From Paraburkholderia ginsengiterrae (GTDB taxonomy: Bacteria > Pseudomonadota > Gammaproteobacteria > Burkholderiales > Burkholderiaceae): a stretch of 64,000 nucleotides of DNA. The stretch spans positions 248,001-312,000 of the forward strand of contig NZ_LXKA01000221.1 in the NCBI RefSeq assembly GCF_001645125.1, read 5' to 3'. The notes beneath the pieces were generated by a model, which worked only from the letters and a program-made list of their open reading frames with translations, searched no databases and had not been told where the DNA came from. Shown here piece after piece: positions 40,778 through 50,044 of this stretch. The position numbers and the translations under genes are program-made. The first letter of the stretch is position 1. Each line of letters opens with the position of its first letter.

Positions 40778-41797
40778 CTACTTCGCGTGGTCGAACGCCG
40801 GCTCCGAGAACCGCTCGATCCAGACTGCCAGGCGGTCGGCCGCAAAACTGGCAGCGCGTGTGCCCGCGCGGCAGACGATGGCGTCACCTTCGCGCACACA
40901 CTGCAGGGCGCCGCCGGCTTCTTCCAGCCAAAGCAGGCAGGCCAGCCAGGCAGCGTGCTCGGCCGAGACGGCCAGACCCACCGGCCGGGTGAGGAACTCA
41001 CTCAGCGTGGCAGGTGTTGTCCAGGTCAGCGCATCGCCATCGCCGCGTACCGAGGCGCCGAGGACTTCAGTGAAGATCTGCACCGCGTCGGCCGCGCCGC
41101 GCCCCGCATTCCGCGTGCGCAATTCCATCAGGCGCGTGCTGACCGCGTGGCCGAAGCTGCCGCTGCATTCGCTCTCGGCACGCACAAGGTCGGCGTAGTC
41201 CATACGCTGCCAGTCCGGTTCCACATTGCGCGTGCCGGCCAGTTCGTTGCCGACCAGCCAGGTTTCCACCGGCTGGAAGCGGCCCGGGCCGATCAGGCTG
41301 GCGCACAGCGTGTGCACGATGCCGATGCGGGTGGCCACGGTCTGCGTCTGCAGCACGCTCAGCTTCTCGCGCACGAGTTGGTCGCGTTCCTTGCGCAGTC
41401 CCGACAGCTCCAGTGCCTGCTTCATCTCCATGCGCAGCGCGGCGATGTCCCACGGCTTCTTGATGTAGCGATGTATCTGGCCCTGATTGACGGCCTCGAC
41501 CGTCTGGTCCAGCTCCGAATAGGCCGTCGTCAGGATCCGGACGATGTGGGGATAGCGCTCGCGCGCGTAGCGCAGAAGTTCGTTGCCATGTTCGCCCGGC
41601 ATGCGCTGGTCGGACACCAGTACGGCCAGGCTGGCGGCGTGGGCATCCAGCATGGCCTTGCCGTCCTCGACGGAGGCGCCCGTCACCACCGGCGCGATCG
41701 CGCCGATGGCGCGCTCGAAGTATTTGACCGCAGTGGCTTCGTCATCGACGAACAGAATCGCCGGAGGTGGCGTCTGGTTGGCAAGCGTGTTGCTCAT
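40778..41797 (-). CDS. Response regulator with an uncharacterised C-terminal domain (PhcQ-like)
   Basis: A 339-residue protein. An N-terminal receiver domain (residues 1-125) has the acidic pair Asp18-Asp19, phospho-acceptor Asp63 in SDQRMPG, a threonine in LTTAY and Lys113 in IKKPW. A coiled-coil linker near 125-150 leads to about 190 residues with no DNA-binding motif that I recognise. It is the last gene of the methyltransferase-kinase-regulator series. The order and size match phcQ of Ralstonia-type phc loci; orthology rests on that and not on alignment. Confidence 0.75.
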   Translation of the reverse strand: MSNTLANQTPPPAILFVDDEATAVKYFERAIGAIAPVVTGASVEDGKAMLDAHAASLAVLVSDQRMPGEHGNELLRYARERYPHIVRILTTAYSELDQTVEAVNQGQIHRYIKKPWDIAALRMEMKQALELSGLRKERDQLVREKLSVLQTQTVATRIGIVHTLCASLIGPGRFQPVETWLVGNELAGTRNVEPDWQRMDYADLVRAESECSGSFGHAVSTRLMELRTRNAGRGAADAVQIFTEVLGASVRGDGDALTWTTPATLSEFLTRPVGLAVSAEHAAWLACLLWLEEAGGALQCVREGDAIVCRAGTRAASFAADRLAVWIERFSEPAFDHAK

Positions 41798-41992
41798 TGG
41801 TAACTCCTGTGCATTCGATTCTTCAAATGGGGTAACTCCGGCGTCGCGGCCGTGCCGGCGCCAGACGCGGATGCAATCCTGATACTCCCGCCAAAGGACT
41901 GCATGACGCGGTTGCAGAAAATCATGCCGAAGCCGCCAACGCCGGCGTGCGGGATAACTGGGCCGGCCAGCAATCGCTGCTCAATCGCTGTA

Positions 41993-42397
41993 TCACCTCG
42001 GGCGCAATTGCTGGGCCGCTACCGCGGATGCCAGCACCTCACGGACCGTGCCCACGCCCAACGGCTTCTCCAGGATTCGAAACACCTCGTCAGGATTGAC
42101 CGCTCCCCGCAGCGCGTCCTTGTCCACGTAGGCTGTCACCAGGATCCGCACGATATGCGGATACTCCTGCGAGACCTGCCGCAGCAGTTCGCCGCCGTGC
42201 CGGCCCGGCATGCGGAAGTCGGTCACCAGGATCGCCACCCGTGCGCCTTCGCGGCGCAGGATCGAGATGGCCTCTTCCGCGTCGCTCGCGAGCAGCACCT
42301 CATAGCCGCTGCCGGCCGAGCGCGCAAAATACTTGCGGGCCAATTCCTCATCATCGACATAGACGACAGTCGGCCGCGCTTGCTGGGTCTCACTCAT
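41993..42397 (-). CDS. Stand-alone receiver-domain response regulator (PhcR-like position)
   Basis: A 134-residue receiver domain only: acidic Asp15-Asp16, phospho-acceptor Asp60 in TDFRMPG and Lys111 in EKPLG. No output domain follows. ATG 42397 is 19 bases after the kinase stop. It occupies the phcR position in the locus, but as a single domain it may act as a phosphate relay or sink. A 195-base gap separates it from the next regulator. Confidence 0.85.
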   Translation of the reverse strand: MSETQQARPTVVYVDDEELARKYFARSAGSGYEVLLASDAEEAISILRREGARVAILVTDFRMPGRHGGELLRQVSQEYPHIVRILVTAYVDKDALRGAVNPDEVFRILEKPLGVGTVREVLASAVAAQQLRPR

Positions 42398-42416
42398 TTC
42401 ATTCTCAATCTGAATC

Positions 42417-43754
42417 TCACTCGACACGCGGCAGGTCGAAATTGAACGCGGTCCACTCTCCCAACTGGCTTTCCGCAAACAATGTGCCGCCGTGCCGCTC
42501 CACCACTGCATAGCTGATGGACAGGCCAAGGCCGAGGCCCTGGCCGACATCGCGGGTAGTGAAGAACGGTTCGAACACGCGCGCCAGATTTTCCTCGGCA
42601 ATCCCCGGGCCGTTGTCGTGCACGTTCACGTGCAGCCGGTCGTCGCGCCATCGTGCCGAGACATGAACCTGCGGCGATACGGTGGCTTCCTTGTGCATGG
42701 CCAGAGCCGCATTCGAGAACAGATTGATGAGCACGCCGATAATGGCGGCTTCGTCGCCCAGCACGAGGGTGTCGCCGGGCAGGTCGCGCGTGACCGTCAC
42801 GCCGCGCAGCTCATGGGCGCTCAGCCGGATCGACGAATCAAGCGCCTTCTCGAACAGGAACGGCACGTCGTCCGCCTCCGCGCCTGGCTTGCGGTAGGCA
42901 AAGGTTTTCAGGTCCGACACGATATGCTGGATGCGGTGCATGCCCTGCTTGACGTCAACCAGGCACTCCTGCAGCGACGGACTGTCCTTGACCTGCGGTT
43001 CCTCCATGGCGATTTCGATCGCCATCAGGCAGAAGTTCACCGGGTTGTTGACCTCGTGGAGCAGCCCCGCGGACAACGTGCCGATCGCAGCCATCTTCTC
43101 CTGCTGCAGAAGCTGGCCCTTGATCTGCGACAGGTTTTCATTGGTGCGGGCGAGCTGATCGTTTTTGTGCGCCACCTCGTCCTTCAGCCGGAAAAGCTGG
43201 AAACGGCCCTTCTCGTTGAAATACGTGTAAATGGAGCTGGCCAAAGCGCAGAAGAAGATCAGGATGAGCTGGAACTCAAACTTGCTAGGGTCCTTGATGC
43301 CGCCCAGATGTGTCACGCAGGCGACGTAGTAGAGCGCGCCCGTGGCGAGGCCGAATGCCAGCGTCTGCAGGTAGCCGGAGGGGAACAGGATCCCCACCGC
43401 AAAGATCGTCAGCATGAGCCCGGCATAGAACAGCGATTGCTCGCCCTGCGTGGCAAAAATCATCCACGAGATCATGATCTGTGGCAGCAGCAGCCAGCAG
43501 AAGGTGATGACCTGCACGTGGCGTTTGCCTGTTTTCGTGTAAAGCGAGAGCAATGCCAGGCCGATCGCCGCGCTGGTCAGCATCCGGACGATGGCAAAGT
43601 ACTTCTGCTCAGCCGGATACACGACATAGTCCATCGCCATGCCCATCAGCACCAGCACGATCACGGTCACGCCACCGGCCTTGCTGCACAGCAACCGGTA
43701 GTCGCGCAGCTCTTCACGATAGTTCGATTGCAGCCCAACCAGTGATGTCGTCAT
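42417..43754 (-). CDS. Membrane sensor histidine kinase (PhcS-like)
   Basis: A 445-residue kinase with about six N-terminal helices (residues 25-180), a coiled coil near 190-215 and the catalytic core. The phospho-acceptor histidine is in AGLLHEVNNPVNF near residue 233; N box SNAALAM, G1 DNGPGI and G2 GQGLGLGLS follow. There is no periplasmic sensor domain, which suits detection of a membrane-soluble signal, as PhcS does for 3-hydroxy fatty-acid methyl esters. It is one base after the methyltransferase stop. Confidence 0.88.
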   Translation of the reverse strand: MTTSLVGLQSNYREELRDYRLLCSKAGGVTVIVLVLMGMAMDYVVYPAEQKYFAIVRMLTSAAIGLALLSLYTKTGKRHVQVITFCWLLLPQIMISWMIFATQGEQSLFYAGLMLTIFAVGILFPSGYLQTLAFGLATGALYYVACVTHLGGIKDPSKFEFQLILIFFCALASSIYTYFNEKGRFQLFRLKDEVAHKNDQLARTNENLSQIKGQLLQQEKMAAIGTLSAGLLHEVNNPVNFCLMAIEIAMEEPQVKDSPSLQECLVDVKQGMHRIQHIVSDLKTFAYRKPGAEADDVPFLFEKALDSSIRLSAHELRGVTVTRDLPGDTLVLGDEAAIIGVLINLFSNAALAMHKEATVSPQVHVSARWRDDRLHVNVHDNGPGIAEENLARVFEPFFTTRDVGQGLGLGLSISYAVVERHGGTLFAESQLGEWTAFNFDLPRVE

Positions 43755-43755
43755 C

Positions 43756-45162
43756 TCAGGCTACTTGTTGCTGGCCGATCACCACCTCGGCAAACACATT
43801 AACCCCGGTCGGGTCCGTGTACAGACGTGGCTCGCCGCAGTTCTCCGGCATGATTTCGGCCATCTGTGCCTCGTTGCGGTAGATCAGATACCACTCCAGC
43901 ACGTGTTCCATGCTGAAGCGCTCCGGGTTGTCGGCGTGGACGTTGGTGACGAGCAGGCGGCCGCCCAGTCTGGTGCGGCTGGCGAAATGCTGGTTCAGGC
44001 GGGCGCAGACCTTGTCCGACAGGTAGTCGAACAGGCCGGCGCAATAGACCGCGTCGAACTCGCGCGCGTCCGGCGCGTCCGCGTCGATCCGGCGCTTGAG
44101 CAGGTGGTGGACCGAATCATGCGTGTAGCTGATGGTCATGCGCTTGGACTTTTGCTGTGCGATGGCCCCGAGGCGCTCGCGCGTCCAGTCTAGCGTTTCC
44201 TGGCTGAAGTCGAGCAGGTCGAACGTCAGCCATTCCGGTTCGTCGTATTCATCCATGAAACGCTGGATTTCCTGAGCCGGGCCACATCCCACGTTCAGCA
44301 CCCGGAACGGCCGCTGCGCGGCGCGCGCCTCATTGGCCAGCCGGGTCAGGTAGTCCACCAGCAGATCGATGCGATTGCGGTGCGCGCGTGCCACGGCCGT
44401 CTGCAGGAAGGCCGCGTTGACGATCTGGAAATACGTGCTCGGGCCCTGGCGCGGATCGTCGATCATCTGGTTGACCATCTGATAGTCACCGGCATAGCCC
44501 AGCGGCTTCGTGAAAGTTCGGAAGACGAAGGGCGAGCGCAGCAGCAGCGGATGGAGCGCCGCTTGGGCAAACGCACGGTGCGCCGGCGCCAGTTCTTCGT
44601 CGACGAGGCGCGCCTCGCCTTCGAATTCGTCGAAGTAGAACTTGGTCCTTTCCATCAGTGGCGATGCCAGTTCGAGGAAGAAGTCCTCGCGCAGGCTTTT
44701 GCCGTCCTTCGGCATAACGTCGGCCAGGTCCGCTTGCTCGACCCAGCGCGACATGTCCGACAGAAAAGCCCGGATCTGGTTGACCGCGATCTGGTAGTCA
44801 CGGCGGATCTGGAAACGATCGGTCCAGTCCTGCGCGAACCGGCGGGCTTCTTCTCCCACGGCGCGCGCTTCCAGCGTGCCGCCACTCAATTCCCGCCACT
44901 CGTCGATCAGCGTCACCGAGACAATGGCTGTCAGGCCGGTGTTGACCATACTGATGACGACCGCCTTGCCCGAATAGGCGTGTTCCACGCCCATCTTGAC
45001 CGACAGGTCGCTCAGCACCTCACTGACCTGGACGATCGAGTACGGGTTATAGACCTCCATCACCAGGGACTTGCGCTGGAGATTGATGATCGTGCCCCGC
45101 ACCTGCTCGCCCTGCGAGTTGCGGAAGCTCACTACCGGATCGATTTGCGTTTTGGAATACAC
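43756..45162 (-). CDS. SAM-dependent methyltransferase (PhcB-like, 3-hydroxy fatty-acid methyl ester signal synthase)
   Basis: A 468-residue protein starting with GTG 45162. An N-terminal region of about 100 residues with VSFRNSQGEQVRGTIINLQ resembles a PilZ-like barrel, which is a guess. The C-terminal Rossmann methyltransferase has motif I VLNVGCGPAQE near residue 287 and the AGLFDYLSD segment. It heads a four-gene set with kinase and two response regulators. Ralstonia PhcB, of similar size and the same neighbours, methylates 3-hydroxy fatty acids to make the quorum signal. Confidence 0.82.
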   Translation of the reverse strand: MYSKTQIDPVVSFRNSQGEQVRGTIINLQRKSLVMEVYNPYSIVQVSEVLSDLSVKMGVEHAYSGKAVVISMVNTGLTAIVSVTLIDEWRELSGGTLEARAVGEEARRFAQDWTDRFQIRRDYQIAVNQIRAFLSDMSRWVEQADLADVMPKDGKSLREDFFLELASPLMERTKFYFDEFEGEARLVDEELAPAHRAFAQAALHPLLLRSPFVFRTFTKPLGYAGDYQMVNQMIDDPRQGPSTYFQIVNAAFLQTAVARAHRNRIDLLVDYLTRLANEARAAQRPFRVLNVGCGPAQEIQRFMDEYDEPEWLTFDLLDFSQETLDWTRERLGAIAQQKSKRMTISYTHDSVHHLLKRRIDADAPDAREFDAVYCAGLFDYLSDKVCARLNQHFASRTRLGGRLLVTNVHADNPERFSMEHVLEWYLIYRNEAQMAEIMPENCGEPRLYTDPTGVNVFAEVVIGQQQVA

Positions 45163-45402
45163 AGTATTGCGGCTAGGTAGGTACCACGAGAGGTTGGCGG
45201 CATCACGGCTTTATCGAGGCTTGGTGGCCTGATGGGCCTGAAGGCCGGCTTCGGAACGATACGGACCTTTGCGATTGCAGCATTCTACTGATAAAAAAAG
45301 AATACTGTGATCCTACGCGGGTTTCATCTGATGATACTAGCTGTGAGAGCCGCGCTCCCTAACAAATTGCGTAGCATGCACGTCATCTTCCGGAGAAATA
45401 CG

Positions 45403-46293
45403 ATGGACCGGTTTCACGAAGTGACCGCCTTTATCGCCGTCGTGGAAGCGGGGGGGTTTTCCGCGGCGGCGCGCAGGACCGGCGAGTCGCAGTCCGCCAT
45501 CAGCAAGGCAATCGGCGCTCTCGAGCGGCGCCTCGGCGTCGCGCTATTCAATCGGAGCACCAGGAGCGTGACCCTGACGGATCAGGGGCAGCGGTACTAC
45601 GATCGGACGAGGCCGCTGGTCGACGAGATGGATGACGCCGACAGCGAAATGACCAGCAGCACGCTCGCTGTCTCGGGTTCGATCAGGATCGCCGCAGCGT
45701 CCACCTTTGGCCGCCTGCACGTTCTTCCTCTCATCCCCGGCCTGCTGTCGCGCTATCCTGGCCTTCAAGTGGATCTGGTTCTTTCGGACTTCGTACGAAA
45801 TATGGTGGACGATCGGATCGATCTGGCGATCCGAGTAGGACAGGTCAATGAACCTGACGCGGTCGTCAAACGAGTAGCGGGTACTCCGCTTGTGTGCGTC
45901 GGCTCCCGCCGCTACTTCGAGCAGCGCGGCATCCCCAGCACGCCCGCGGACCTGGTGCATCACAATTGCCTTTTATACGGCGGCCTGGAGGAGTCGGCGG
46001 ATTGGCCGTTTGTTGGGCCGGAAGGGCGATTCAGCGTGACCGTTCGCGGCAACCTTTCGTCCAACAGTGTCGAGACGATTCGGGCTGGTGTGCTCGCCGG
46101 TGTGGGAATTGGTCTCTTTGCGAAGGTTTCGCTTTCGGACGAACTTCAGCATCCGGACGTGATCACGGTTCTCGACGAATTCATCAGCGACGTTAGAGAT
46201 GTCAGCCTCGTCTGGCCCAAACGCCGGTTTGTGCCGGAGCGCGTGCGGCGCGTGACGGAGTTCTTCGCTTCGTCACTGCCGTCACGTCTTTAG
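45403..46293 (+). CDS. LysR-family regulator (CrgA-like)
   Basis: A 296-residue LysR protein: HTH FSAAARRTGESQSAISKAIG, effector domain from residue 92 (GSIRIAAASTFGRLHVLP). GGAGAAA precedes ATG 45403. It is divergent from the phcB-like gene across 240 bases. Its N-terminus, MDRFHEVTAFIAVVEAGGF, is of the CrgA kind and does not resemble PhcA, so it should not be taken for the global regulator of phc systems. Confidence 0.92.
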   Translation: MDRFHEVTAFIAVVEAGGFSAAARRTGESQSAISKAIGALERRLGVALFNRSTRSVTLTDQGQRYYDRTRPLVDEMDDADSEMTSSTLAVSGSIRIAAASTFGRLHVLPLIPGLLSRYPGLQVDLVLSDFVRNMVDDRIDLAIRVGQVNEPDAVVKRVAGTPLVCVGSRRYFEQRGIPSTPADLVHHNCLLYGGLEESADWPFVGPEGRFSVTVRGNLSSNSVETIRAGVLAGVGIGLFAKVSLSDELQHPDVITVLDEFISDVRDVSLVWPKRRFVPERVRRVTEFFASSLPSRL

Positions 46294-46303
46294 CCACTCG
46301 GAA

Positions 46304-47386
46304 TCAGTAGTCGTACACGTGCTCGGTCACGAGGCCGTTTTTCCCGGCTGCCGCCAGAAAATCGGACAAGCCGCGAACCGGCATCAGCAGCGCGACGCGC
46401 CGTGTATTGGCGGGCAGAGTCAGCGGCTGTTCGAACAGGATGCGACCGCTGCTGGCCGGCAGCGACGCGTCGTTTTTCATCCACACCGTAACCAGAATCT
46501 CCGATGTATTGCCCGCGATATCCGTGAGCCGAATGCCCTGTTGCGCAAGTGCTGTCGCCGCCACCCTGAAATCGAAATAGCGGGGCAACGCAAGTAACGC
46601 GCGACCGTCCGGCAGACGAGCCAGCACGCTGACGTGAGCCTGCGCCGACCAGCCATCGGGCAGGTGGTCGACGACCACGTCGGTCGTCATCAGGGCCGGG
46701 GTGTAGGCGGCCCGGGTGGCCTTCTCGATCAGCTTTCCGTACACGGCCTTGATCGCGTATTCGGTGGTCAGCGCATAGCGGCGTTCCCATTTGCGCACGA
46801 CCCCCGGCCCCCACATCGGCACATCGCTCCAGAGGTGACGCAGCCGTGCGCCGAAGTCGAACAGATACCACGGCTCCTGACGGATGAAGTCCACGTACTC
46901 CTGCGCCGCCTGGGCGGCGAAGCGATCCTCGTCGGTCAGCTTTTTCCCGCCGAGCAGCCAGCTCGCGCGACCCACGGTGTTTTCGTAGAGCGAGCGCAGC
47001 ACGTATTCCACAGTCGTGCTCGATGCGATCACCCAGATCATCACGTGATAACCGGGATTGAGCGGGTAGTTGTCGCGCATCTGCTCACGCGTGACCGTTG
47101 CGTAACTCGACCAGAGTTGGCCGATCTGATCCAGAAACGGAAAATCATGCGGCGGCGCATGTTGCACGATCCGCGCGTATTCCGCCGGGCTATGGACCAG
47201 ATACCACTCGGGGAAAGTCAGCAGCGTCTGCTCAGTGCCGCGGCGATCCGCGTCCGGCACGGGGCTTTGGTATAACGCTCCCGGCGTTCCGGACGAAAGG
47301 GGCGCCTCCTCCGCCTGCGCAGCCGGCGCCGCGAACGCGAGCGCGACGCCGATGACTAGCAGCGCGTTGCGCAACAGCCGCGTCAT
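46304..47386 (-). CDS. Exported protein of unknown function
   Basis: A 360-residue protein with a clear signal peptide ending PAAQAEE. The mature part is soluble, with LTFPEWYLVHSPAEYA near residues 55-70, a tryptophan-rich middle and no catalytic motif I recognise. Its ATG overlaps the stop codon of the FAD-oxidase/methyltransferase gene (ATGA), so the two are translationally coupled. Function may depend on that enzyme. Confidence 0.8.
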   Translation of the reverse strand: MTRLLRNALLVIGVALAFAAPAAQAEEAPLSSGTPGALYQSPVPDADRRGTEQTLLTFPEWYLVHSPAEYARIVQHAPPHDFPFLDQIGQLWSSYATVTREQMRDNYPLNPGYHVMIWVIASSTTVEYVLRSLYENTVGRASWLLGGKKLTDEDRFAAQAAQEYVDFIRQEPWYLFDFGARLRHLWSDVPMWGPGVVRKWERRYALTTEYAIKAVYGKLIEKATRAAYTPALMTTDVVVDHLPDGWSAQAHVSVLARLPDGRALLALPRYFDFRVAATALAQQGIRLTDIAGNTSEILVTVWMKNDASLPASSGRILFEQPLTLPANTRRVALLMPVRGLSDFLAAAGKNGLVTEHVYDY

Positions 47387-49665
47387 GCCGCGCCTCCCTG
47401 GCGCACGAACGCCAGCAGGATGTTGTCCGACGGATCGCCCTGTTGAGTCAGGCGCATGCCGGTATGGCGAAAGCCGGCGGCTTCGACACGCGCAATCCAG
47501 TCATCCACGCTCGCGAAATGACGCAATTCGGACCGGTTGGTTTCCCAGCTTTCGCCGAGCCCCGCGTTGAACACCGTGTGGGCCAGCGACACGAATGCAT
47601 CCATGGCCGGCGTCGTGACGTCGTGATCGCGAACCACGAAATAGCCGCCGGGCCGGACGATGCGCGCGATCGAGTCGAGAAACGGCGCGAGCTTTTCCGG
47701 CGCCATGTGATGCAGGCCGACGAAGCAACTCACGAGATCGGCGCTGGCGGCAGGCAGCGCGATGGGTGCATAGTCGTTCAACGGCTGGAACTCGCCGATC
47801 GAGCCGAACTGCCCGCGCTCGACGATATCGACCGGGCTCATGCCCGGCTGCACGTCGTGCACAAGGGTCACCTTGCCTTTAAGGTGCAGATATTTTTTCA
47901 TGGCCCGGACGTAGCGCCCGGTCGTGCCGATCTCCACGTAGTCCTGTAACGGCGCATCGCCCAGCAGCATGGCGGTCTGGCGGCCCATTTCAGCCTTCTG
48001 CATCGACAGTGACGGCAGCGCGTGCGTGAGCATGGCGAGGCGCGGAGTGATCGCTTGGAGCCCCGCCTGGATCGCGCGATAAATGTGCTCGTCGCCCGTA
48101 TGTTCGGCCGTCGACGCCTTGATCAACGTATGCAAACGGTCTTCGGGCAGCACGTTGAAAATGTTCTGCAGGAACGTATAGAAACGATCGGCTTCGCGCT
48201 CGCTGTGATAGATCGTTTCGAACAGGGTGCCGTCGCGGTCCGCCTGGTTCGCCGCCATGGTCGCCATGGTCACCATGGCCGGCGAGGAATCAGGTGTTGC
48301 GGCGGCCGGCAAATGCGCCGCTTCAGACGCGCTGAGTTCGGGTGCATAGTACCGATCCCACAGCGCACCCCGCAGCCGATACCGCGGATCGAATTGCCGC
48401 TTGAGTGCAAACATTTCACGTGCGCGCGGATAGGCACGATGGAATTGCTCGTGCGTCGCGTGCAACTGGTAGGGCAGGTAGTAAGTGCCCCCCACTTCGA
48501 GTACTGCGTCGATCAGTTCACGCGTCCAGACCGCCACGCGCTCGATCGCATTCGCGCGGGTGCGCTGCTTGTAGTAAAGCACGAACGCAAACGTCTCACC
48601 GCGGGCCCACGCCATGACGGTGCGGTTGTCGGCGAGTGCGTGGCGGATCGAAATGTTGACCGCGTTCACCCGGTGCCGCGAAAGTACCGCCGAGAGCGCC
48701 TCGGCGAATCGCGTGACGGCTTCCACGGGCACGAAGTACTCCTGCAGCACATACGTGCGCCGGCGGCGGCCGACCGGCTCGAGTTCCGCGACGTCGTACC
48801 CGGCTTCGTAGTTGCGCCAATGCACTTTCTTGCCGAAATGCAGCAGCGGGTCGTACAGGAATTCGCGGCGGAATTTACCGAGCGGCGTTTCAGTGATCGC
48901 CCATAGAAAATACTTCGCGGCAAGAAAGCCGCGACTGAGCGGCTGCAGCCGCGCCGAAGTGGCCGGCTCGTCGGTGACCGTCCAGCTGATCGCGCGGCCG
49001 CGCACATAACGCGGCGGATAGAGATCGAAATTGTGGAAGATCACATCATGATGGCTGCGCACGTTGGCGTCGAACCACGCCTTGTAGTCGGCGGTGCGCA
49101 TGGTGCGGTCGCTGCGCTTGACCCGCGTATTGGGCACGAGATCGAGTTCCGCTTCGGTGATGATGCCGACGCCGCCATAGCCGCCGATCGCCGCGTTGAA
49201 CAACGTGGTGTTCTCAGTCGGGCTGGCGTCGACGACCTCGCCGTCGGCCAGCACGAGCCTGATCGCCCTGACCGACAGCACGACTGGCCCCAGGCCCATG
49301 TAGCGCCCATGCGCGTTGACGGACAGCGCGCCACCCACCGTGAAGTTCGCATAGGTCTGCATGATCTTCACCGACAGACCGTGCGGATCGATAAAACGCT
49401 GGATGTCACACCAGCGGATCCCGGCCTGCACGCGAATCACCGACGTGTGCGGCTCGAAGCGCAGCACCCGGTTCATCTTGCGCATATCCAGGTGCAGGGT
49501 GCCCGGACTCGCGGTGTGTCCGCCCATGCTGAAGTGGCCGCCGCCTATCGACACTGGCAGCGTGGTCTGCGTGAGCGCCTCGACGACCTCTTCGGTCGTG
49601 GTGGGCGTGGCGATGGAAAATACCGGAATGCGGTTCAGCTGAGTAACGTCGTTGACGGTAGTCAT
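47383..49665 (-). CDS. FAD-dependent oxidase fused to a methyltransferase
   Basis: A 760-residue fusion. Residues about 15-190 are a VAO/FAD_binding_4 domain (VSIGGGHFSMGGHTAS, QAGIRWCDIQ, YGGVGIITEA), and up to about 460 is a sugar-lactone-oxidase-like substrate domain. After a linker near 460-480, the C-terminal third is a methyltransferase with YVEIGTTGRYV as a degenerate motif I, LVSCFVGLHHMAPE and IVRPGGYFVVRDHD. ATG 49665 follows a GGAG site. It lies between a DUF805 gene and an exported unknown. Substrate is not known; oxidation then methylation of one molecule is the simplest reading. Confidence 0.88.
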   Translation of the reverse strand: MTTVNDVTQLNRIPVFSIATPTTTEEVVEALTQTTLPVSIGGGHFSMGGHTASPGTLHLDMRKMNRVLRFEPHTSVIRVQAGIRWCDIQRFIDPHGLSVKIMQTYANFTVGGALSVNAHGRYMGLGPVVLSVRAIRLVLADGEVVDASPTENTTLFNAAIGGYGGVGIITEAELDLVPNTRVKRSDRTMRTADYKAWFDANVRSHHDVIFHNFDLYPPRYVRGRAISWTVTDEPATSARLQPLSRGFLAAKYFLWAITETPLGKFRREFLYDPLLHFGKKVHWRNYEAGYDVAELEPVGRRRRTYVLQEYFVPVEAVTRFAEALSAVLSRHRVNAVNISIRHALADNRTVMAWARGETFAFVLYYKQRTRANAIERVAVWTRELIDAVLEVGGTYYLPYQLHATHEQFHRAYPRAREMFALKRQFDPRYRLRGALWDRYYAPELSASEAAHLPAAATPDSSPAMVTMATMAANQADRDGTLFETIYHSEREADRFYTFLQNIFNVLPEDRLHTLIKASTAEHTGDEHIYRAIQAGLQAITPRLAMLTHALPSLSMQKAEMGRQTAMLLGDAPLQDYVEIGTTGRYVRAMKKYLHLKGKVTLVHDVQPGMSPVDIVERGQFGSIGEFQPLNDYAPIALPAASADLVSCFVGLHHMAPEKLAPFLDSIARIVRPGGYFVVRDHDVTTPAMDAFVSLAHTVFNAGLGESWETNRSELRHFASVDDWIARVEAAGFRHTGMRLTQQGDPSDNILLAFVRQGGAA

Positions 49666-49672
49666 ATCCGCA

Positions 49673-50044
49673 TCACTCCGAGATATCGACTTTGAGGTAA
49701 TCCGAGCGGGCCGCCGGATCGGGGCCGAAGCGGTTTTCGTGCTCGACGCCACGGCGAAGCAGATGCATCAGCACCCAGATCGGCCCGAAAACCGGGATCA
49801 CGGCGCTCAGCAACGACCATCCGCCACGGCCGATGTCGTGCAGGCGCTGGGTGCCGAGCGCGCTCGCACTCCAAAGAAAGACCAGCGCGAAGAAGGCCGC
49901 GCCTGTTTCGCCAAACCACGCAGCGGCGAGCTCGCCAAAGGCCGCGCACACGAGTGCGGCGATGACGATCCGTGTCAGCCATTCGCCGCGCGTAATGCGG
50001 CCGCGGCTCGTAAAGAATGCGGGGGCGAGGGTCGTTAAAAGCAT
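49673..50044 (-). CDS. DUF805 membrane protein
   Basis: A 123-residue inner-membrane protein with three to four helices. The opening FFTSRGRITRGEWLTR and the QRLHDIGRGGW motif near residues 67-77 define DUF805. It starts with ATG 50044 and ends 7 bases before the fusion gene, so it is the first gene of that operon. Its function is unknown in general. Confidence 0.9.
   Translation of the reverse strand: MLLTTLAPAFFTSRGRITRGEWLTRIVIAALVCAAFGELAAAWFGETGAAFFALVFLWSASALGTQRLHDIGRGGWSLLSAVIPVFGPIWVLMHLLRRGVEHENRFGPDPAARSDYLKVDISE

Follow-up and report, generated by a model that had tools for sequence, protein, structure and literature searches.

The closest described relatives of the locus analyzed here are the phcBSRQ operons of the Ralstonia solanacearum species complex (RSSC), in which PhcQ is reported to be the main output and PhcR a minor one (PMC8578825), and PhcQ to bind and stabilise PhcA (PMC13320629), the usual master regulator. 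Full-length PhcR in the complex has 368-374 amino acids (aa) (PMC8578825), residues R22 of PhcB and R154 of PhcQ have been mutated (PMC6989110), and H230 of PhcS is the phosphorylation site (PMC11960443). PhcB and PhcS follow signal type, whereas PhcR and PhcQ follow phylotype (PMC8578825), and phcB and phcS are under balancing selection (PMC6580516). A phc operon without phcA was already stated for strain PsJN in 2013 (PMC3639386). Here we examine a stretch of 64,000 nucleotides (nt) from the soil bacterium Paraburkholderia ginsengiterrae (contig NZ_LXKA01000221.1, positions 248,001 to 312,000; hereafter the window), which carries a phc locus on its minus strand at 40778-45162. This locus is likely to be a horizontally acquired phcBSRQ quorum-sensing operon that has been reduced to phcB-phcS-receiver-phcQ and has an output independent of PhcA. 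That it represents an unusual variant of an ordinary family is well supported by sequence comparison.

The locus comprises, in order of transcription, a methyltransferase, a membrane histidine kinase, a lone receiver and a receiver protein with an additional C-terminal part; all four open reading frames (ORFs) were confirmed in the phcBSRQ order that an earlier note on this DNA had assigned to them. The phcB gene (43756-45162) starts with GTG and encodes a methyltransferase of 468 aa, with a six-strand N-terminal beta domain (residues ~10-85), a helical part and a Rossmann methyltransferase part. It is followed by phcS (42417-43754), encoding a membrane sensor histidine kinase of 445 aa (H233 codon at 43056-43058), by the reduced phcR (41993-42397), encoding a lone receiver of 134 aa, and by phcQ (40778-41797), encoding a receiver plus C-terminal region of 339 aa with D63 and R157. 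Comparison with relatives places the start of the gene in the phcR position at the ATG at 42397; the mechanically called ORF of 202 aa begins within phcS. Residue R22 of PhcB is kept, as are the equivalents of H230 in PhcS (H233) and of R154 in PhcQ (R157), and PhcQ has the size and composition expected of the family (~336 aa, a receiver with a C-terminal part, and R154). Identity to one genome of the genus labelled g24 is 65% for PhcB, 61% for PhcS and 53% for PhcQ; we regard this genus as Ralstonia-like because a PhcA of 347 aa, phcBSRQ and a receiver protein at the position of PhcX are all found no farther than ~16 kb from phcB. The earlier note was right that the kinase lacks a periplasmic sensor domain, yet this is ordinary, as the Ralstonia-like PhcS aligns with it end to end (442 vs 445 aa, 61%). 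The 8.5-Mb genome, 100% complete, holds a single copy of the methyltransferase, and no second PhcB was found in it.

In a tree of PhcB (77 of 100 rows, 23 near-duplicates having been left out by hand) the window falls inside a clade of 24 Paraburkholderia loci, one of them labelled Burkholderia sp. (clade A; Shimodaira-Hasegawa-like approximate likelihood ratio test, SH-aLRT, 99). This clade is sister (SH-aLRT 100) to two Cupriavidus loci with a full phcR, L054 and L069, and the PhcS tree, from a comparison on 37 chosen rows, agrees on the placement of the window. A second Paraburkholderia group (clade B), with a full phcR, nests within the canonical Cupriavidus group. The methyltransferase and the kinase thus nest inside PhcB and PhcS in the phylogeny that had been proposed as a check, and on these trees the two window proteins are orthologous to those of Ralstonia and Cupriavidus. 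R22 is invariant in 45 of 45 aligned PhcB sequences; this set includes the distant L017 (genome G056), a 34% methyltransferase in an unrelated neighbourhood that served only as an outgroup, so R22 alone is no proof of PhcB function. Genes of the locus also occur together in relatives, as the earlier note had asked: in 23 of them (22 Paraburkholderia and one 'Burkholderia sp.'), with methyltransferases 90-95% identical, phcB, phcS and phcQ follow one another as in the window, and a lone receiver occupies the phcR place in 22 of these relatives. An order-wide search for distant PhcB returned 8 of 300 genomes. At L023 (G056:C163, 276-1775 and 3285-5798) a methyltransferase that distantly resembles PhcB (34%) lies beside a long ORF that shows internal repeats by eye.

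A main result of the comparison concerns phcR. By Pfam, the full PhcR proteins of two Cupriavidus loci and one g24 locus each comprise REC, HisKA and HATPase_c. The 134-aa window protein has only the REC domain; it therefore lacks the histidine kinase domain of a PhcR and is the lone receiver that had been noticed from the sequence. Aligned across the junction (10 clade A loci against L054, L069 and L063), the window and nine clade A relatives have lost 532 nt, as counted in L054, at an identical junction (...GTGCTG directly followed by GC...). The deletion begins right after receiver residue 122, and the sequence resumes in the G1 box of HATPase_c; since 532 cannot be divided by three, the frame shifts, and the receiver ends after ~12 out-of-frame codons that run into the remnant of the kinase. 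This relic of the PhcR C-terminus (41803-42031, minus strand; PhcR residues ~303-376, the end of HATPase_c) is out of frame with the receiver, has an 11-nt insertion in the window copy and takes its start from the junction alignment, the match at E<=1e-6 spanning 41803-41985. It makes up most of the 195 nt that separate phcR from phcQ in the window, as compared with a 4-nt overlap in the full operon of L063. The alignment indicates that a single frameshifting deletion of 532 nt in the ancestor of the Paraburkholderia clade took HisKA and most of HATPase_c. A relic match at E<=1e-6 is present in 19 of the 24 clade A loci, and L046 and L050, among the other five, still show its start. Twelve clade A loci in genomes of the same genus have the receiver and no full PhcR; only two of these (G022 and G037) are not among the named loci and so add to the count, and both show the same receiver-plus-relic form. 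Assembly error was ruled out, since the reduced phcR occurs in 23 other named assemblies, of which 22 retain the lone receiver as an open frame. The notion that programmed frameshifting joins receiver and remnant, leaving PhcR not truly reduced, could appeal to a relic frame that is largely open in several species; it is close to refuted by the absence of HisKA and the N-box region from the DNA itself, by an in-frame stop in L038, by the lack of an E<=1e-6 match in 5 of 24 loci and by a ratio of nonsynonymous to synonymous substitution rates (dN/dS) of 0.69 in the relic.

The receiver has fared differently from the relic. It is open over 131-134 aa in 23 of 24 clade A loci, and the acid pocket, phospho-acceptor Asp, Thr and Lys are present in clade A receivers (D15/D16, D60, T88 and K111 in the window, assigned by eye), so that, by sequence, it has the intact phospho-site and the lack of an output domain that define a single-domain response regulator. 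Its dN/dS (from 23 rows) is 0.27 for the whole receiver and 0.22 for the core, compared with 0.11 for PhcB, 0.14 for PhcS and 0.14 for PhcQ in clade A, and with 0.13 in clade B and 0.20 in Cupriavidus for the receiver of a full PhcR, a pattern that points to clear but weaker constraint. The receiver might nonetheless be a mere passenger, a phcR in slow decay with no role while PhcB, PhcS and PhcQ do all the work. Its dN/dS is about twice that of those three proteins and above that of the clade B receiver; in one clade A locus, L033, only ~39 receiver residues are left; and phcQ follows straight after phcS, with phcR wholly absent, in L085, L093, L102 and L121. These phcR-less loci fall in three places on the PhcB tree and, together with clade A, imply about four reductions or losses of phcR, while PhcB, PhcS and PhcQ stay. 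Such repeated loss fits the small effects of phcR deletion, and the large effects of phcQ deletion, in Ralstonia (PMC8578825). Against a passenger stand the near-constant retention of an open receiver with its phosphorylation residues, a core dN/dS little looser than that of the Cupriavidus full-PhcR receiver and far from that of the relic, and the fact that the sole loss, in L033, occurred in a genome where a second operon with a full phcR lies nearby in opposite orientation. We therefore hold the passenger explanation to be unlikely, if the most serious of the alternatives, and prefer a retained lone receiver.

The second departure from the described systems is the output. When genomes were searched with a g24 PhcA (347 aa) and the best candidates in each were scored (67 of 105 in the window genome), no PhcA orthologue was found in the window genome, where the best match has 30% identity (E 1e-31), similar to that in phc-negative genomes; the earlier note had seen no PhcA at the locus, and the whole-genome search extends that observation. 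The same query recovered PhcA at 97% in the g24 genome G081 (over the part before its insertion) and at 76% in two Cupriavidus genomes. Among the matches listed, the window genome and 25 other genomes of its genus (16 with a methyltransferase match, one of these only the 34% one, and 9 without) gave only LysR matches of 24-33% identity, and two genomes of genus g25 likewise gave only weak LysR matches. In a search that shares some genomes with this one, covering the 27 phc-positive genomes of the named loci, PhcA at E<=1e-45 was present in 5 of 5 Cupriavidus and in 0 of 22 others (7 clade A, 3 clade B and 12 Oxalobacteraceae or other relatives, 6 being metagenome assemblies). No PhcA was thus found in any phc-positive genome searched outside Cupriavidus and the Ralstonia-like genus. 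An operon in a genome that lacks the usual master regulator probably acts on a target other than PhcA, and PhcQ must have another partner here, or none. The LysR gene next to phcB (45307-46293), divergently transcribed and drawn into the account of the locus by the earlier note, might be thought to have replaced PhcA. However, no similar gene was found within 7 kb of the operon in 23 clade relatives, as judged with a rough gene caller, and its nearest NCBIfam models are YafC/AaeR-like regulators, as opposed to BsrA/LeuO for PhcA (all below curated cut-offs); this replacement is very improbable, and the gene drops out of the story. PhcX as a replacement regulator was rejected as well, its best match in the window genome reaching only 25%. 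Two further observations concern the distribution of PhcA. In G081 (G081:C1:2597463-2599742, about 3137-4971 of L112) phcA is split by an insertion beside an ORF that resembles a transposase by eye, and other genomes of the same genus have intact copies. L121 (G100, genus g25) has phcB-phcS-phcQ without phcR, in a genome where no PhcA was found.

The operon also shows evidence of a mosaic origin. PhcB and PhcS support the grouping of clade A with L054 and L069, whereas the PhcQ data reject it (approximately unbiased test, p-AU 1.4e-7). When PhcB is split at residue ~65 (B1, B2) and PhcS into its sensor (S1) and kinase (S2) halves, the window is 89% identical to both the canonical Cupriavidus L063 and L054 in B1, 66% and 82% in B2, 44% and 75% in S1, 81% and 80% in S2, and 79% and 67% in PhcQ. 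The catalytic part of the synthase and the sensor domain match a rare Cupriavidus allele (L054/L069), and trees and segments together indicate that the allele lineage of these two parts is distinct from that of PhcQ. The segment in question extends approximately from 43260 to 44967 on the minus strand (PhcB residue ~66 to PhcS residue ~165), with borders good to ~250 nt.

Comparable borders can be seen between Cupriavidus operons. In five pairs picked after the trees for close PhcQ and different PhcB (L054/L064, L092/L063, L098/L063, L095/L068 and L076/L078), DNA identity in 250-nt windows falls to 57-80% from ~+440 to +1750 after the phcB start and is mostly >80% (69-99%) outside; the sharpest border is that of L054/L064, where an identity of 69% gives way to 94% at ~+1900, close to where the phcS sensor half ends. 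Clustering of 28 loci from Cupriavidus or Cupriavidus-like genomes (L071, L072 and L094, whose genes are broken or incomplete, were excluded) assigns synthase part and sensor half to four shared types at thresholds of 80 and 82% identity and divides them more finely at 85% (4 B2 classes, 7 S1 classes, 7 joint). Across the 378 pairs, the synthase part correlates with the sensor half at r = 0.983, the sensor half with the kinase half at 0.651, and the synthase part with PhcQ at 0.531; adjacency alone would link synthase part to sensor half, yet it would not decouple sensor half from kinase half. Each compared with L114, the 16 g24 loci sort into two types (11 and 5), which differ from each other with ~70% identity in the synthase part, 42-46% in the sensor half and 88-97% in the other segments, one locus having no R and Q on its contig. 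The two g24 types might correspond to the known MAME and PAME types. Exchange of the segment between otherwise close operons is seen in the five Cupriavidus pairs, whose borders resemble one another, and in g24, where the segments show the same pattern. These results suggest that the segment is a signal-type cassette, of which the window would hold one of the rarer types, and that such cassettes have been exchanged among species like signal types. The covariation of synthase part and sensor domain, as expected of a maker and its receiver, speaks in turn against the proposal that the operon no longer serves quorum sensing, its methyltransferase acting on some other acid and PhcS sensing something else. 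The known output, PhcA, was not found, and the sensor domain shares no more than 44% identity with its L063 counterpart, as such a change of function might predict. Fold and family nevertheless remain those of PhcB, and R22, which affects signal synthesis in Ralstonia (PMC6989110), is invariant throughout the alignment, distant outgroup included. On balance we consider a loss of quorum sensing improbable, and a retained quorum-sensing role the better account.

The distribution of the operon in Paraburkholderia argues for horizontal acquisition. A methyltransferase match was obtained in 17 of 59 drawn same-genus genomes, 12 at 91-100% (the window's included), 4 at 67-69% and one at 34%. Flanks were compared over 7 kb on each side with a rough gene caller: five locus pairs share several neighbours, a few others share single genes, and none of the flanking genes of the window recurs. 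Setting apart pairs at shared sites, nucleotide homology within clade A has its upstream limit at a median of 146-412 nt ahead of phcB and its downstream limit no more than ~30 nt from the phcQ stop; in the window, the upstream stretch common to clade relatives (45163-45343, minus strand) reaches -181 at most. An upstream motif search revealed only a short leader conserved just ahead of the GTG and a single weak site resembling a promoter, no better than expected by chance. By these comparisons the operon is patchy in Paraburkholderia and located at different sites. No mobility gene was seen travelling with it. The Cupriavidus operons of L054, L063 and L069 lie beside what we take, by eye, to be secF/secD. 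In the simplest history, the operon probably came from a Cupriavidus-like donor and then moved within Paraburkholderia. Both main methyltransferase types are present in P. translucens (G057), where two phc operons of different clades (L019/L027, G057:C44) lie in opposite orientation with their phcB genes ~11 kb apart, the clade A copy having lost most of its receiver.

As to mechanism, PhcB would make a 3-hydroxy fatty-acid methyl ester, as it does in Ralstonia (3-OH MAME or 3-OH PAME). PhcS, with its matching sensor domain, would respond to this ester by passing phosphate mainly to PhcQ; the lone receiver would be a second phosphate acceptor, acting as sink, competitor or connector, and PhcQ would act on a target other than PhcA. 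The predicted structure of PhcB (mean predicted local distance difference test score, pLDDT, 83) combines the six-strand N-terminal domain, mostly outside the exchanged segment, with a methyltransferase fold; this N-terminus may be PilZ-like, to judge from the strand order in the model. The PhcQ model (mean pLDDT 87) has a receiver, a C-terminal helix pair and an alpha/beta part. No Pfam family covers the C-terminal region, which in the order of its helices and alpha/beta elements resembles HisKA/HATPase by eye; that it is a degenerate kinase core, or pseudokinase, remains a guess, because it is the receiver that accounts for the matches from Foldseek and VIA-align. Several points weigh against the scheme as a whole. 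The PhcQ tree also rejects a grouping of clade A with the four C. necator-type loci alone (p-AU 8e-10), which places the PhcQ donor somewhere in that part of the tree without pinning it down. The receiver, with a dN/dS exceeding both that of its operon partners and that of its clade B counterpart, may be drifting, given this looser constraint and the loss of most of it in L033. The dN/dS of the relic, being <1, may reflect a partly constrained history or a bias from choosing rows by protein similarity. Finally, the absence of PhcA is based on similarity, so that a remote functional substitute would escape a search of best candidates, and 6 of the 22 negatives are metagenome assemblies.

More generally, and tentatively, phc might be viewed as a movable signalling module instead of a fixed pathway to PhcA. 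Its backbone (PhcB N-terminus, PhcS kinase half, PhcR and PhcQ) would take exchangeable synthase-plus-sensor cassettes as signal types across the Ralstonia-like genus, Cupriavidus and Paraburkholderia, would be free of PhcA outside the first two, and in one Paraburkholderia clade would have been pared down to PhcS-PhcQ, the lone receiver serving as a phosphate sink; we rate this broader view as possible, though somewhat doubtful. How PhcS reaches PhcA, and what PhcR contributes, is unsettled in Ralstonia, and clade A is a natural deletion that keeps PhcB, PhcS and PhcQ under strong constraint with the PhcR kinase removed and no PhcA found. Action of PhcQ besides PhcA hence becomes testable, P. 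xenovorans LB400 (L045), a common laboratory strain, carrying the lone-receiver form, and the cassette borders point to the synthase and sensor regions expected to set signal specificity. Elsewhere in the window, a single 789-aa ORF (47386-49752, minus strand) joins a FAD (flavin adenine dinucleotide)-binding oxidase domain to a methyltransferase domain, and directly downstream of it a 360-aa protein (46307-47386, minus strand) has no Pfam family at E<=0.001.

Set against known systems, the window resembles the phcBSRQ-PhcA system of the R. solanacearum complex in gene order and in having orthologous PhcB, PhcS and PhcQ with their key residues; it differs in a phcR that encodes only a receiver, in the lack of a detectable PhcA or close PhcX, and in a sensor half that shares 45% identity with its counterpart in the Ralstonia-like L111. 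Cupriavidus L054/L069 are the likely source, their PhcB catalytic part and sensor half being 74-82% identical to those of the window, with L063 closer in PhcQ (79%); these three loci have a full PhcR, PhcA and one kind of site, whereas the Paraburkholderia operons occupy various sites. The phcBSRQ operons of Burkholderia (Paraburkholderia) phytofirmans PsJN and B. xenovorans LB400 were reported in 2013 (PMC3639386), the latter belonging to the clade of the window, and the covered parts of that report mention neither the missing kinase half of LB400 PhcR nor the mosaic. Among the papers listed by the literature searches, no description was found of the truncated PhcR, its relic, the cassette borders or cassette exchange in Cupriavidus and Paraburkholderia. 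Finally, the two PhcB/PhcS signal types of the R. solanacearum complex (PMC8578825, PMC6580516) provide the nearest parallel to the cassettes, PhcB and PhcS being grouped there by signal type and PhcR and PhcQ by phylotype; here, by contrast, the borders could be placed within the phcB and phcS genes, the 28 Cupriavidus-like loci comprise four types, and one type occurs in Paraburkholderia.

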